A stretch of DNA of 64,000 nucleotides, taken from positions 1,421,589 to 1,485,588 of the forward strand of contig NZ_QPMJ01000001.1 in the NCBI RefSeq assembly GCF_003369835.1, read 5' to 3'. The stretch is from Halorussus rarus (GTDB taxonomy: Archaea; Halobacteriota; Halobacteria; Halobacteriales; Haladaptataceae). Numbering within the stretch: the stretch's first letter is position 1; every line of letters starts with the position of its first letter. Made by a program: the position numbers and the translations under genes. Below are positions 5,797 through 38,696 of the stretch, in pieces. The notes beneath the pieces were generated by a model. That model saw only the letters and a list, made by a program, of their open reading frames with translations. It did not search any database and was not told the DNA's origin.

Positions 5797-7149
5797 TTAC
5801 TCGACGAGCTGGATGAGGTTGCCGTTGCTCGTCACGTGGAGGTCCCGACCCAGTTCGTAGCCCTGGCTCTCGGCGAGGCTCACGTACGGCGCGAACCCCT
5901 TCATGTCCTGGTGGGCCGGGATGATGTTCTGCGGCTGGAGCGCGTCGATCATCTGGTAGTGACCCTCCTCGCGGAGGTGGCCCGAGACGTGGATGTCGTC
6001 GTAGATGCGAGCGCCCTGCATCTTCAGGAGGCGCTCGGACTGGTAGCGCTGGCCCTCGTTGGTCGGCTCCGGAATCACGCGGGCCGAGAAGATGACCTTG
6101 TCGCCGTTCTCCAGTTCGTAGGGCGTCTCGCCCCGGCCCATCCGGGTGAGCATCGCGCGGGGCTCGCCCTGGTGGCCCGTGACGATGGGGAGGTAGTTCT
6201 CCTTGCCCTCCTTCATGATCCGCTTGAAGGTGCGGTCGACCGACTTGCGGTGCCCGAACATCCCCATGTCCTCGGGGAAGTCGACGAAGTCGAGCCGCTC
6301 CGCGGTACCCGAGTACTTCTCCATCGACCGGCCGAGCAGCACGGGTTCGCGGCCGATGTCGTGAGCGAACTCCACGAGACTCTTGACGCGGGCGATGTGG
6401 CTTGAGAACGTCGTCGCCACGATGCCGCCGTCGTAGTCCTCGATGGAGGTCATGACGTCCTTGAGGTGCCGACGGGCGACCGCCTCGCTCGGCGTCCGAC
6501 CCTTCCGGCCCGCGTTGGTGCAGTCCTCGATGTACGCCAGCACGCCCTCGCCCTCGCGACCGATTTCGCGGAACCGCTTCATGTCGATGGGGTCGCCGAG
6601 CACCGGCGTGTGGTCCATCCGCTTGTCGAGGCCGTAGACGACCGCGCCCTCGGGCGTGTGGAGCACCGGGTTGATGGCGTCGATGATGGAGTGGGTCACG
6701 TTGACGAACTCCAGTTCGACCTGCCCGGAGTCGCCGATGGACATCGTCTCGCCCGCCTCCATCTTCACGAGATCGTTCTCGACGCCGAACTTCTGCTCGC
6801 CCTGGATCTGCTGCTTGACCAGTTCGATGGTGTAGGGCGAGGCCACGACCGGCGCGCTGTACCGGTGGGCCAGCTTGCTGATGGCGCCGATGTGGTCGAG
6901 GTGACCGTGCGTCGGCACGATGGCCTGGACGTCACCTTCGAGGTCCGACATCACGCGGTCGTCCGGTATCGCTCCCATGTCGATGAGGTCGAGACTGTGC
7001 AGTTTCTCCGTCTCGACGTTGTCGTGGAGCAGCACCTTCGAGAGGTTCAGCCCCATGTCGAAGATGACAACGTCGTCGCCCGCGCGGACGGCGGTGCACT
7101 GCCGTCCGACTTCCTCGTAACCGCCGATGGTTGCAATTTCGATTTCCAT
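5797..7149 (-). CDS. rnj: archaeal ribonuclease J (5'-exonuclease)
   Basis: 450-residue metallo-beta-lactamase/beta-CASP nuclease acting on RNA 5' ends. The zinc motif [15 protein letters not shown] lies near residue 80, later ligand residues include [12 protein letters not shown] and the C-terminal IIPAHQD (His), and the beta-CASP segment is in the middle. Length matches archaeal RNase J. It is directly followed by idsA with a 1-base gap. Upstream is an unusually long non-coding leader with strong hairpins (see 7150-7739), which may matter for control of an RNase. Confidence 0.95.
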
Positions 7150-7739
7150 AGTTTCACCTTATGTACGCAAAGCCACGTCGTCGCGGCCGAGCCGCGCCGG
7201 CTCCGCGACGGAACCGGATCGCGCCGCGGCAGCGCCACGGTGTTTCGCGGCGAAGCCGCGCAACGTGGCGTCCGTACGCACGTAAACCTGCTCGGGCGAG
7301 CGGTCCCTGGTCCGCGGCGTCTTGCAGCCGTCGACGGGACAACCCGGTGGCGTCCGGCCACGTTTCCCGAGCTACGGGTCTATGAGGCGTTTAGACTCCC
7401 CGGTAATAAAAACTGCCGGGATTGGCCCGGTTCGAGCGCAAGATGAATGTTTTGGCCGACGGGGTGCGTCGACTGCCGCGACCAGATCTCCGATACAGCA
7501 CACAGAGAACGGGAATCAAACGGCCTGATACCGGTGTTCCGCTCGGCCGAAACGGGACCGTCTCGGCCGCTAGGCCATTCGGGACCGCCGTAGGCCAACG
7601 TTTAAATACGAAACCGGGACGAACTCGCCACGGACGCTCCGCGCGGTCGCCCGGCGCCGGGGCCGGGGACCGCCAGTCCGGCTACCCCGAGAGGGCTGCG
7701 CCAGAACACCGTAAACGGGGAGCAACCGCCGAACCGAAC
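7150..7739 (-). other. 590-bp non-coding stretch; structured leader of rnj
   Basis: No convincing gene on either strand. Reading toward rnj, two strong hairpins sit next to the start codon. One has arms CGTCGCGG (7179-7186) and CCGCGACG (7203-7210), with an inner AGCC/GGCT stem. The other, at 7233-7270, has outer arms CGCCACG/CGTGGCG and inner arms CGCGGC/GCCGCG around GAA. A TATA-like TTTTTATTA (minus strand, about 7402-7412) would give a leader of about 220 bases. A second TATA-like TATTTAAA lies at 7600-7608. I looked for tRNA, SRP RNA and RNase P RNA here and could not support any. Confidence 0.5.
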
Positions 7740-33591: not shown

Positions 33592-34479
33592 GTGTCGAGT
33601 CGACGCGATTTCCTCCGGCGCGGCGCGGGCCTGCTCGCGCTCGGGAGCGCGGCGGGCGCCGGCGCGCTCGTCGCCCGGTCGGGGACGGGCGCGAACGACC
33701 CCGGCGCCGCAGCGAACGTCCTCGTGGCGGGCAGTCTCCAGGGCGTCGCCGGTGAAATCGGCGACGTCAGCGTCGAGGCCCACGGCAGCGTCGCCTGCCG
33801 GCGCCTGCTCGCCGACGGCCTGCGCGACCCGGACGCCGTCGCGCTGGCCGACCCCGGCCTGTTCGCCGGCCTGTCCGAGCGCGCGACCTGCTTCGCCACC
33901 AACGCCCTGGTCATCGCGGTCGCGCCCGACTCCCCGGCGGCCGACTACGCCCCCGACGAGGCCGACGACTGGCGCGGACTCCTCGCCGACGAGAGCCTCG
34001 CGCTCGGCCGGACCGACCCCGAGCGCGACCCGCTAGGCTATCGGACGGTGATGGCGCTTCGCCTCGCTGACGACGTCGACGCCGAGGCGGTGCTCGCCCG
34101 GATCAGCGTCTTCCCGGAGACGGGACTGCTCCGGACGCTGGAGGCCGGCGGCGTCGACGCCGCGTTCGCCTACAGGAACATGGCGGTCGAGCACGACCTG
34201 CCGTACGTCGACCTCCCCGACGCCGTCGACTTCTCGGACCCCGACCGCGTCGACGAGTACGCCCGGGCGAGCGTGGCTCTCGACGACCGGACCGTCACCG
34301 GAGCGCCCGTCCGGTACGCCGCGCGCGGCCGGACCGAGCGCGGCCGCGAGTGGGTTCGGGCGGTAGCTTCGGCCCGCGAGACGCTGACCGGCGCCGGATT
34401 CGGCGTCCCCGAGCGCTATCCCGTCGAGCGCGAGATTCCCCGGAATGACGGTCCGCAGCACAGCAGTAGCCGGCAATAG
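33592..34479 (+). CDS. Tat-exported WtpA/ModA-like substrate-binding protein
   Basis: 295 residues from a GTG at 33592. The N-terminus is a clear twin-arginine signal (SSRRDFLRRGAGLLALGSAA). The mature part opens ANVLVAGSLQGVAGEIG and has VEAHGSVACRRLLADGL, the WtpA-type GSVAC motif of archaeal molybdate/tungstate-binding proteins. Later parts (FPETGLLRTLEAGGVDAAF, RNMAVEHDLPYVDLPDAV) fit. No permease or ATPase gene is adjacent, and the following genes point the other way, so the transporter partner lies elsewhere. A TATA-like TATTATTTTC lies at about 33558-33567. Confidence 0.8.
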   Translation: MSSRRDFLRRGAGLLALGSAAGAGALVARSGTGANDPGAAANVLVAGSLQGVAGEIGDVSVEAHGSVACRRLLADGLRDPDAVALADPGLFAGLSERATCFATNALVIAVAPDSPAADYAPDEADDWRGLLADESLALGRTDPERDPLGYRTVMALRLADDVDAEAVLARISVFPETGLLRTLEAGGVDAAFAYRNMAVEHDLPYVDLPDAVDFSDPDRVDEYARASVALDDRTVTGAPVRYAARGRTERGREWVRAVASARETLTGAGFGVPERYPVEREIPRNDGPQHSSSRQ

Positions 34480-34710: not shown

Positions 34711-34883
34711 CTCCGTTCGTGCCGACGCAGCGATGCCGGGTATATGGGTCTTCTCTCTTCTACCCCCATTCGCCCGACAGCCAGAACAGATTGGGTCAGT
34801 TACAGACAGGATACGAGGACTCTACGTCCGGGGATCGGTAGCTTCTGGGTGTTCCGGAACCGGAATTTACTTGTCGGACGGTG

Positions 34884-34901
34884 TTTTAGGCCAACCTAAA
34901 A
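34884..34901. promoter_or_regulatory. DtxR-type palindrome overlapping a start codon
   Basis: TTTTAGGCCAACCTAAAA: perfect 7-bp arms (TTTTAGG and CCTAAAA) around CCAA. The last A is the A of the ATG at 34901. The TTAGG-n4-CCTAA core resembles the consensus of DtxR/MntR/SirR-family metal-dependent repressors. A TATA-like TTTACTT at 34866-34872 places transcription start inside the palindrome, so a bound repressor would block initiation (inference). Confidence 0.6.
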
Positions 34902-35851
34902 TGGTCGGTGGAACCCTGCGGGACCTGCGCGAGCGCATCGCGGACCGCCACGACGACGACGGACGCTACTACGTGAACTGCGCACGGACCGGCGAGCGGC
35001 CGGTCCCGGTGTCGGGCAAGCGATTCCCGTCCCGGGAGGCGGCGGTCGAGGCCGCCGAGCTGGCCGCGGAGTACCGGGCGGAGCTCCGGCGCTACGACCC
35101 CCGGCTCCCGCACTACGACCTGGTGGTCTCGGAGTCGCCGGGCGCGGCCGGGCCGCTCGACCCGGTACCGGTGGTCGACCATCCTCCCGAGTCGCCCACC
35201 GCCTCGGACTTCTGCCACGACGTGGCCGCCGCGGTGTTCGAGTCGCTCTCGGCGCTCGGCGAGACCGACGTCGAGCGCGGGGCGATGGAGGCGTACCTCC
35301 ACTCCGCCGAGTCGGTGACCGACGCCGACGAGCTCTGCCTGGTGTTGCTCTCGACGATGGCGACCGAGATCGACGCCCGGCTCGACCCCGACCGCCAGGC
35401 GGAGGTGCTCCGGGCGGCCGCCGAGCGACTCGGCGCGACGTCGGCCCCCGGCGGTCCCACTTTTCGCGGAGCGAAAATGGGAGCACGAGGTATCGCCGAT
35501 CGATACCTCGGCGACCCGATGGAGGCGACGCTGGCCCGGCTCGACGGCCTCTCGCTGGTGGGCGACTACGCGGTCGCGCCGAACGACGGGCGTGCGGAGG
35601 ACTCCTCCCGCACCGGCGAGGCCACCGCCGGCCGCTCGTGGGCCGTCACGGTCGAGGGGTACGCCTTCGAGAGCCCCGACGGTCGGGTGCCGACCCTCCC
35701 GCTCGCGGTCGAACTCTACCGGCGGCTCCCCGACGCCGCGGTCGCGGTGTCGGACCTCCGGGCGACGGGCGACGCCGAGTGGGAGTGCGTCGTCTCGACC
35801 GACGCCGAGCGCTCCCGGGCGGTCAGCCTCGCGGTCCCCGAAGACGACTGA
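34901..35851 (+). CDS. haloarchaeal conserved hypothetical, probably metal-regulated
   Basis: 316 residues from the ATG at 34901; a longer reading from 34733 adds non-conserved sequence and would span the operator. The N-terminal part begins VGGTLRDLRERIADRHDDDG and has a GKRFPSREAAVEAAELAAEY helix; the middle is helical (SDFCHDVAAAVFESLSALGE); the C-terminal about 90 residues are beta-rich with SWAVTVEGYAFESPDGRVPT. I know no named function. An in-frame stretch at about 35457-35510 is encoded by two back-to-back palindromes and may be an insertion. Promoter carries a DtxR-type palindrome. Confidence 0.75.
   Translation: MVGGTLRDLRERIADRHDDDGRYYVNCARTGERPVPVSGKRFPSREAAVEAAELAAEYRAELRRYDPRLPHYDLVVSESPGAAGPLDPVPVVDHPPESPTASDFCHDVAAAVFESLSALGETDVERGAMEAYLHSAESVTDADELCLVLLSTMATEIDARLDPDRQAEVLRAAAERLGATSAPGGPTFRGAKMGARGIADRYLGDPMEATLARLDGLSLVGDYAVAPNDGRAEDSSRTGEATAGRSWAVTVEGYAFESPDGRVPTLPLAVELYRRLPDAAVAVSDLRATGDAEWECVVSTDAERSRAVSLAVPEDD
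35457..35510. repeat. two adjacent perfect palindromes inside a coding sequence
   Basis: TTTTCGC (35461-35467) and GCGAAAA (35471-35477) around GGA, then CGAGGTATCG (35486-35495) and CGATACCTCG (35501-35510) around CCGAT. Both are perfect, and AT-richer than the surrounding gene. They encode TFRGAKMGARGIADRYLGD in frame. Confidence 0.6.
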
Positions 35852-36664: not shown

Positions 36665-37423
36665 ATGCGGGAAAGAATAACAAGACGGACGCGGCGAACG
36701 GCGACGCTCGCAGTCGCCGTGCTGGTGATGACGGGGTTCGTGGGGACAGGAGTCGCAACCACCGGTGCCGCCGACTCGGGTGCCGGACAGGTCAGGGTCG
36801 CGCACCTGTCGCCGGACGCGCCCGCGGTGGACGTGCTCGTGGACGGCGACGCCGTCCTCGAAGGAGTCGAGTTCGGCACCGTGAGCAAGTACCTGCAGGT
36901 GCCGTCCGGCGACCGCGAGGTGACGATACAGACCGCGGAGGACGACGCGGTCGTCTTCGAGGGCAGCGTCTCGGTGGAGGCCGGGACGATGTACACCGTC
37001 GCGGCCATCGGCGAGGTCTCGGAGGACACGTTCCGTCCGGCCGTCTTCGTCGACGACTTCGAGAAGCCGAGCGAGGAGAACGCGTCGGTCCGCCTCGTCC
37101 ACGCGTCGCCCGACGCGCCGGCGGTCGACGTGACGGTCGCGGGGACCGACACCGTGCTGTACGACAACGTCTCGTTCGCCAACGCGACCGACTACGTCAC
37201 CGTCCCGGCGGGCGACTACGAGCTCGAGATCCGGCCGGCGACCGAGGACGACGACGGCGAGGTCGTGACCACCGTCGACGTCTCGCTGAAGGGCGGCGCG
37301 GTCTACTCGGCCGTCGCGGCCGGGTACCTCTCGCCCGACGACGAGCCGGCCGACACGCCGTTCGAGGTCATCCTCGCCACCGACGCCGGGGGCGAGGAGA
37401 TGGACGAGAAGAACGAGGGGTGA
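36665..37423 (+). CDS. secreted DUF4397 protein 1
   Basis: 252 residues from the ATG at 36665. The signal peptide is basic then hydrophobic (TLAVAVLVMTGFVGTGVA). Two DUF4397 repeats follow, each opening with VRVAHLSPDAPAVDVLVDGD or VRLVHASPDAPAVDVTVAGT. The C-terminus (EEMDEKNEG) has no sorting signal or anchor. DUF4397 domains are beta-rich extracellular modules of unknown function. It is followed, after 445 bp, by a paralogue. Confidence 0.88.
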   Translation: MRERITRRTRRTATLAVAVLVMTGFVGTGVATTGAADSGAGQVRVAHLSPDAPAVDVLVDGDAVLEGVEFGTVSKYLQVPSGDREVTIQTAEDDAVVFEGSVSVEAGTMYTVAAIGEVSEDTFRPAVFVDDFEKPSEENASVRLVHASPDAPAVDVTVAGTDTVLYDNVSFANATDYVTVPAGDYELEIRPATEDDDGEVVTTVDVSLKGGAVYSAVAAGYLSPDDEPADTPFEVILATDAGGEEMDEKNEG

Positions 37424-37868
37424 CGAGCCGAATACCGACGCGGTGAGCGGCGCAACCACCGGCCGCGGGCTGCGGAGCGAGTCGACCGCCGTCGAGCCGT
37501 AAGCGCGGAACCAGTTCGGTCCAGAGACGTTCGAGCGCGACACGCACCGGTAGCGACCGCTGTAGCGCGTCGCAGTGGAACGCGAGAAGATGGCGTCGGG
37601 GCCGAACCGGTTCGGAAACGGGTCGCGACCGAAACGACCGATTGACGCATCGCGACCGGAGGGCACGTCGGGACCGAATCAACCGAACGCGGCAGGTCGA
37701 CCGCTTCGCCCGCGTGAGCGAACCTTACATTCGACGTAAGCCGCGTTTCGTTCGATCTTTTTCGACTTTCCTCGGAGAAACCGCCGCCTTGTGGGCTTCT
37801 ATTGGGAATTACCGGGTTCCACGTTCACCGCGATTTATCCCCGACGGCGTCGCAGACGGCCGTGAGAC
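37424..37868. other. 445-bp intergenic region between DUF4397 paralogues
   Basis: No gene is supported. It holds CTTACATTCGACGTAAG (37724-37740; arms CTTAC/GTAAG), a T-rich stretch at about 37755-37770, and CGATTTATCC at 37831-37840 as the likely TATA of the second gene (ATG 37869). The first 280 bases show nothing beyond GC-rich sequence. Confidence 0.45.
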
Positions 37869-38696
37869 ATGATCGGAGACAACTCGACACTGACCCGCAC
37901 CGTCGCGGTGGGCTTCGCCGTCCTCGTCGTCGCCGGACTGGGCACCGGTTCGGTGGCCTCGCTGACGGAACGAGACGCACCGGGGCTGCAGGACCCCGAG
38001 AACGCCCAGGTCCGGGCGGCCCACATGTCGCCCGACGCGCCGGCCGTGAACGTGGTCGTCGACAACGAGACGGTGGTCGAGAACCTCGAGTACGGCGACG
38101 TGACGAGCTACCTCGACCTGCAGGAGGGCGACCACCAGATCGCCATCGTCACCGCCGAGAACGAGACCACGGTGCTCGAACAGCAGGTGACGGTCGAGGC
38201 AAACGAGCGCTACACGCTCGTAGCCGCCGGCGAGGTCGGGGAGAACGCCGCCGAGGCGTTTCAGCTCGTCGCGTTGCAGGACGTGCGGAGAGCGCCGAAC
38301 GGCACCAACGCCTCGGTCCGGCTGGTCCACGTCGCGCCCGGCGCGGGGCCGGTGGACGTCACGGTCAACCGCACCGGGGCGGTGCTCTACGACAACGTGA
38401 CCTTCGGCGACGCCAGCGAGTACGCGTCGGTCCCCTCGGGCGTGTACACGCTGAACGTCCGCGAGGCGACCGAGGGCAACGACGGCCAGATCCTCGCCTC
38501 GTTCACCGAGAGCTTCGAGGGCCGGACCGCCTACACGGGATTCGCCGGTGCGGTGACCGAACAGGGCGACGAGCCGCTCGCGCTGTTCGTCGCCATCGAC
38601 CAGACGGACAACCCCGAGATACCCGGCGCGACGACCCAAGCGGATAACGCGACCACGACCGCAGAGAGCGGTCAGGAGACCACGACCGAGGCGTAG
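37869..38696 (+). CDS. secreted DUF4397 protein 2
   Basis: 275 residues. It has a signal peptide (TVAVGFAVLVVAGLGTGSVA) and two DUF4397 repeats (VRAAHMSPDAPAVNVVVDNE; VRLVHVAPGAGPVDVTVNRT) with many Asn-x-Ser/Thr sites, suggesting surface glycosylation. The C-terminus is Thr-rich (ATTQADNATTTAESGQETTT), typical of haloarchaeal surface proteins, but lacks a PGF-type anchor. Tandem paralogue of the preceding gene, with its own TATA-like element. Confidence 0.88.
   Translation: MIGDNSTLTRTVAVGFAVLVVAGLGTGSVASLTERDAPGLQDPENAQVRAAHMSPDAPAVNVVVDNETVVENLEYGDVTSYLDLQEGDHQIAIVTAENETTVLEQQVTVEANERYTLVAAGEVGENAAEAFQLVALQDVRRAPNGTNASVRLVHVAPGAGPVDVTVNRTGAVLYDNVTFGDASEYASVPSGVYTLNVREATEGNDGQILASFTESFEGRTAYTGFAGAVTEQGDEPLALFVAIDQTDNPEIPGATTQADNATTTAESGQETTTEA

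Follow-up and report, generated by a model that had tools for sequence, protein, structure and literature searches.

A DtxR-type palindrome over the start codon of a DUF7552-DUF7551 gene in Halorussus rarus is very likely an operator of an iron regulon

The palindrome that overlaps the start codon of a DUF7552-DUF7551 gene in a 64,000-nucleotide stretch of the Halorussus rarus genome (the window) is very likely a single-dimer operator for an iron-activated repressor of the DtxR family, which would place the gene in the iron regulon. Judging from the sequence, the gene would be repressed by iron, and its product very probably helps the cells obtain or use iron, because the same switch precedes relatives of the gene in many other haloarchaea. 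The features of the window and the genes standing behind the other copies of the site are collected in Table 1.

Table 1. Features of the window and genes preceded by exact copies of the site in the Halorussus rarus genome (plain positions are those of the window; L and G numbers are our handles for loci and genomes).
Feature	Location	Strand	Evidence
Putative operator palindrome TTTTAGG-CCAA-CCTAAAA, TTTTAGGCCAACCTAAAA	34884-34901	.	Read directly from the sequence
Predicted core promoter, BRE/TATA-like CCGGAATTTACTT	34860-34872	+	Conservation among orthologues
Gene for a 316-aa protein, DUF7552 (residues 5-79) and DUF7551 (residues 102-308)	34901-35851	+	Pfam match
DUF7552-family genes (two promoters)	Window gene; operon DUF7552-DUF7260-DUF7552, L049:5327-7151 (G000:C1, about 1379326-1381150)		Exact site at the window gene; two exact palindromes 20 bp apart before the operon
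Siderophore-binding lipoproteins, Peripla_BP_2	L047, L052, L053, L054, L056		Exact site upstream
FecCD permease	L055		Exact site upstream
Substrate-binding protein, probably Fbp-type, plus permease and ATPase	L048		Exact site upstream
56-codon reading frame adjoining Dps	L057		Exact site upstream
ABC ATPase, substrate unassigned	L051		Exact site upstream
Lipoate ligase, no obvious iron link	L046, palindrome at 6941-6954		Exact palindrome upstream
Gluconate_2-dh3/GMC oxidoreductase pair, no obvious iron link	L050, palindrome at 7191-7204		Exact palindrome upstream
Glycosyltransferase-like gene, no obvious iron link	L048		Exact site upstream

The palindrome has perfect 7-bp arms and overlaps the start codon by one base, the A at 34901. 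Direct reading placed an exact TTAGGN4CCTAA core at 34886-34899, and no second copy was present in the window even when two mismatches were permitted. The BRE/TATA-like stretch, centred about 32 bases upstream of the ATG and including the TATA-like TTTACTT at 34866-34872, probably acts as the core promoter, and the stretch aaccggaatttactt was kept in seven Halorussus loci (the window, L096-L100 and L102) with varying flanks. Lying 12 bases past the TATA-like element and reaching the ATG, the palindrome is predicted to cover the transcription start, the position of which is itself a prediction. The initial annotation had reported both the perfect-armed palindrome ending on the first base of the ATG and the TATA-like element, and the sequence and coordinates it gave were correct. 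An in-frame ATG that would lengthen the gene exists at 34733; the start at 34901 was preferred because it agrees with the first residue of the orthologues. The search for a degenerate second copy at -50 of the gene met only the unrelated stretch GTTCCGGAACCGGA, and the one site of this promoter is that downstream of the TATA-like element.

The abundance of the motif was compared with that of the same pattern read backwards, which served as the control for all motif scans. The exact TTAGGN4CCTAA was present 16 times in the 4.37 Mb genome of Halorussus rarus, compared with one occurrence of the backwards pattern (Poisson P of about 2e-14 for 16 sites with a mean of 1). When one mismatch was permitted genome-wide, the excess was gone (28 sites against 34 for the control), and the enrichment is therefore confined to the perfect form; one-mismatch sites were not counted as evidence, except for paired or palindromic ones. 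The scan of 146 genomes of the order detected 1505 exact sites and 188 backwards ones, with the forward pattern exceeding the control in 135 genomes and at least one exact site in 142. All 15 of the exact sites fetched from outside the window were wholly intergenic, in sequence of which 81% of the bases were called coding. Among the 189 distinct sites in all loci collected, the two positions flanking the search pattern were T and A in 89%, and the first spacer base was C or T in 92%. These preferences were not set by the search pattern, so the true motif is approximately TTTAGG-Y-N2-R-CCTAAA.

The 16 exact sites in Halorussus rarus belong to the promoters of 14 genes or operons (Table 1). At least seven of the 14 promoters serve siderophore-type or Fbp-type iron-uptake genes, and a further one is located near Dps. 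This was the outcome of the genome-wide scan for the motif before metal-related genes that the initial annotation had proposed, and the link to iron or manganese homeostasis which it had drawn from the palindrome holds for iron, as the genes beside the sites are iron genes and the site is conserved across genera. In 12 of the 14 promoters, the distance from the end of the core to the ATG is 1 to 18 bases; in the remaining two (L046 and L051) it is larger. The short spacing is what would be expected of an operator lying over the start of a leaderless or nearly leaderless transcript. Four of the siderophore-binding genes had been called too late and have in-frame ATGs 3-5 bases past the site. 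The lipoate ligase gene and the Gluconate_2-dh3/GMC pair are surprising additions to the predicted iron regulon. The site GTAGGTTCACCTAA at SufC (L058) is suggestive only.

The site was then followed at the relatives of the window gene. In Halorussus, the two-domain gene was present in 11 of the 18 genomes searched, and the exact site started at exactly -15 from the ATG in 10 of these 11 orthologues, with differing spacer letters. In the eleventh orthologue (L102, genome G026) the palindrome, TTTTAGCTAGCCTAAA, is one base short and stands just before the ATG at 6819; it represents a natural operator variant. The other seven Halorussus genomes had no DUF7551 gene, and the gene is therefore dispensable. 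A wider set of 61 loci consisted of the window and 60 loci from 59 other genomes, after 66 domain matches had been reduced to one gene per locus; the 60 were picked by best scores with new genera first, and were not a random sample. The exact site was found within 400 bp of the gene in 36 of the 61 loci, at the gene or the likely operon head in 49, and at exactly -15 in 18, while the backwards control gave no hit in any of the 61. One locus, L154, had been counted from a too-early start; with the corrected ATG its sites lie at -162 and -126, and the first two counts become 37 and 50. For the best 80 of 150 named loci, the corresponding numbers were 51 within 400 bp and 62 at the gene or operon head, again with none for the control. 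In Halorussus, Haladaptatus, Halorientalis, Halosimplex and Natrialbaceae, 19 sites lay at -15 and one at -16. Some species occur in both sets, which are therefore not independent. No site was detected by this rule in 12 of the 61 loci and 18 of the 80 named loci. Nine of these 18 are the second DUF7552-DUF7551 paralogue of Haloferax/Halogeometricum (L186, L193 and seven similar ones), which had no site within 4 kb; a gene of the FAD oxidoreductase family was nearby in all nine.

Other promoters carry two sites in recurring arrangements. Exact second sites among the 189 lay at distances of 36 bp (27 cases), 35 bp (5), 34 bp (4), 20 bp (1) and 55 bp (1). Once up to two mismatches were permitted, 105 of the 189 sites had a partner 34-37 bp away, whereas the partners in the backwards control were scattered. 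Reading by eye, we recognized a BRE/TATA-like stretch, for example CCGAAA...TTTAA, between the members of the 34-36 bp pairs. Pairs at 20 or 21 bp preceded single-domain DUF7552 genes, in all seven loci matched by that gene (L035-L041), and the DUF7552-DUF7260-DUF7552 operon of Halorussus rarus also stands behind such a pair.

The search of the Halorussus rarus genome with Fe_dep_repr_C identified two DtxR-family genes. One of them (L064, near G000:C1:609437) encodes a protein with a DNA-binding Fe_dep_repress domain, a metal-binding Fe_dep_repr_C domain and a FeoA domain, and the product of the other (L065) has the DNA-binding and metal-binding domains only. From its domains, the canonical DtxR-FeoA protein L064 appears the likeliest repressor at the palindrome; L065 could bind there instead. 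The L064 promoter contains TTAGACGCCACTAA, a symmetrical two-mismatch version of the palindrome, which hints at self-regulation and is suggestive only. In one genome, a DtxR-FeoA regulator gene (L138:7112-7756) adjoins a DUF7551 siderophore-uptake cluster. DtxR-family regulators were reported to control iron homeostasis in haloarchaea (PMC11349517, PMC5605881). For IdeR, PMC10317159 describes a single dimer binding two CCTAA repeats with a 4-bp spacer, and repressing boxes that overlap the start site. The window palindrome fits this definition of the IdeR 'half site', with its two inverted CCTAA repeats and 4-bp spacer being exact.

We propose, as a model, that when Fe(II) is sufficient, one repressor dimer would bind TTTAGG-N4-CCTAAA just downstream of the TATA-like element, over the A of the ATG and the predicted start of transcription, and would thereby block initiation. 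At low iron, the metal-free repressor would depart, allowing transcription of the gene into an mRNA with little or no leader. The product probably belongs with siderophore-iron uptake and may work alongside an FAD oxidoreductase and a DUF7260 protein, whose genes are neighbours in other genera.

The gene had been initially annotated as having no known function. This description can be refined, as the protein has two domains that are named in Pfam but carry no function, DUF7552 (PF24422; E of 4e-33, 113.9 bits against a gathering cut-off of 27) and DUF7551 (PF24420; E of 5e-58, 196.7 bits against 52.6). Of 392 genomes of the order, 205 encoded relatives in a profile search with DUF7551. In alignments of 71 sequences, comprising the window protein and those of 70 of the 80 named loci, Cys27, Cys105 and Cys146 were invariant, and His106 was present in 70. 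With these three invariant cysteines and the nearly invariant histidine, the protein may act in the cytosol on imported iron or ferric siderophore, a role that we regard as tentative.

In other genera, the gene is frequently found among genes for siderophore uptake. Within four genes of the DUF7551 gene, Peripla_BP_2 was encoded in 20 of the 61 loci, an FAD oxidoreductase in 16 and DUF7260 in 13. The DUF7551 gene lies beside an annotated iron ABC transporter cluster in Halobacterium hubeiense and inside one in Halobellus limi, in both cases with an NAD(P)/FAD-dependent oxidoreductase. Among the best 80 of 150 named loci, a relative of Peripla_BP_2, the FAD oxidoreductase or FecCD was within 4 kb in 30, and any of these or DUF7260 in 54. 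The 64-kb window itself contained no match to relatives of these four families. The upstream neighbour of the window gene (33592-34479, + strand) encodes an extracellular solute-binding protein (SBP_bac_11), possibly of the molybdate or tungstate type. Two adjoining DUF4397 genes (36719-38696, + strand) are kept near the DUF7552-DUF7551 gene in several Halorussus relatives.

The structure of the protein was predicted with AlphaFold2, and the model was confident, with a mean pLDDT of 86.5 and a pTM of 0.70 for the whole protein, and 85.6 and 0.83 for DUF7551 alone. Comparison of a Pfam-like sequence profile with PDB chains yielded no hit at E values up to 10. Foldseek with the whole model returned mainly designed proteins in the top rows; with DUF7551 alone, H-NOX came first and accounted for seven of the first nine rows (best E of 0.015). 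In VIA-align, DUF7551 matched chains of soluble guanylate cyclase, H-NOX, TRAPP and MopR with Z of 5.0-6.2, mostly over 100-160 residues; the best Z, 6.2 over 155 residues, is under the caution level of 8, and unrelated ribosomal and pilus rows reached equal Z. H-NOX, V4R and Bet3 belong to one fold class, and the model of DUF7551 weakly resembles it, which we take as a lead. The predicted fold is like those of H-NOX/soluble guanylate cyclase, V4R and TRAPP Bet3 over most of the domain, with the VIA-align Z of 5.0-6.2 spanning roughly 140-160 residues, but the scores are below the level needed to show kinship, and the conserved cysteines and histidine of DUF7551 lie in its first helices. The haem ligand of H-NOX is a proximal histidine in the middle or second half of the domain. 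No histidine was conserved in the second half of DUF7551 among the 71 aligned sequences; histidine reached 60% or more only at columns 106 (70 of 71) and 121 (44 of 71), which both fall within the first quarter of DUF7551. DUF7551 was accordingly rejected as a member of H-NOX. A more detailed function can be imagined, in which DUF7552-DUF7551 proteins would be an archaeal means of removing iron from imported siderophores or passing it on. In this cytosolic protein, an H-NOX/V4R/Bet3-like ligand pocket with Cys105-His106, Cys146 and, from the first domain, Cys27 would hold iron, haem or a ferric siderophore, and the neighbouring FAD oxidoreductase and DUF7260 would complete a reductase system unrelated to the bacterial FhuF or SIP reductases. 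We consider this proposal speculative and rather unlikely to be right as a whole.

Other explanations of the palindrome were weighed against an iron-dependent operator. A manganese-sensing regulator of the MntR/SirR type, with the gene being a manganese gene, would be conceivable in that DtxR and MntR form one family and the genome encodes two DtxR-family proteins. This reading is very unlikely, since the genes beside the 16 sites are those for siderophore uptake, Fbp-type uptake and Dps, and no manganese transporter family was among the Pfam matches of the proteins scanned beside the sites; moreover, TTAGG/CCTAA is the repeat of the iron sensors DtxR and IdeR (PMC10317159). Slighter still is the chance of an activator or dual site at which the iron-loaded regulator would switch the gene on. 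IdeR is able to activate some genes, and one site lies near the gene for Dps, an iron-storage protein, but sites over the start or downstream of TATA would be expected to block initiation, and the bracketing of the BRE/TATA-like stretch by the double sites likewise argues against activation.

The least probable of the alternatives, which we consider extremely unlikely, is an inverted repeat that arose by chance or for an unrelated reason and does not regulate the gene. The control does predict about one exact site per genome, and no iron gene lies beside the DUF7552-DUF7551 gene in Halorussus. Such a repeat is contradicted by conservation, because the site keeps its exact position before the Halorussus orthologues despite the varying spacer and also occurs in other families. 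Against the operator for an iron-activated repressor we counted the three of 14 promoters without a clear iron link, the siteless loci, the lost base in L102 and the dispensability of the gene.

The placing of the DUF7552-DUF7551 family in the iron regulon is new as far as the literature searched shows. The names DUF7551 and DUF7552 were absent from that literature, and the primary haloarchaeal DtxR target lists, which lay outside the search, may list the gene by locus tag. If this placing is true, iron acquisition can be named as the process served by a family that roughly half of the sampled haloarchaeal genomes encode (see the profile search above) and that has until now been listed as a domain without known function, and its regulation becomes testable. 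The geometries, namely one site over the start codon, pairs at 34-36 bp around BRE/TATA and pairs at 20-21 bp, would then also provide a way to find iron-regulated genes in haloarchaea.

The operator type is already known as the IdeR 'half site'. The haloarchaeal site shares with the DtxR/IdeR box of Actinobacteria (the 19-bp box TTAGGTTAGSCTAACCTAA and the IdeR half site; PMC10317159) the inverted CCTAA repeats with a 4-bp spacer, the position over the transcription start of repressed genes, here a predicted one, and the marking of iron-uptake genes. Unlike that box as described there, the haloarchaeal site consists of two repeats only, for one dimer; second sites are 34-36 or 20-21 bp away and do not overlap, and the promoter is of the archaeal BRE/TATA type. 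Iron control by DtxR-family proteins is likewise reported (PMC11349517, PMC5605881) for Idr1, Idr2 and SirR of Halobacterium salinarum and for Idr, SirR and TroR of Haloferax volcanii; unlike these networks, only two DtxR-family proteins were found in the Halorussus rarus genome.
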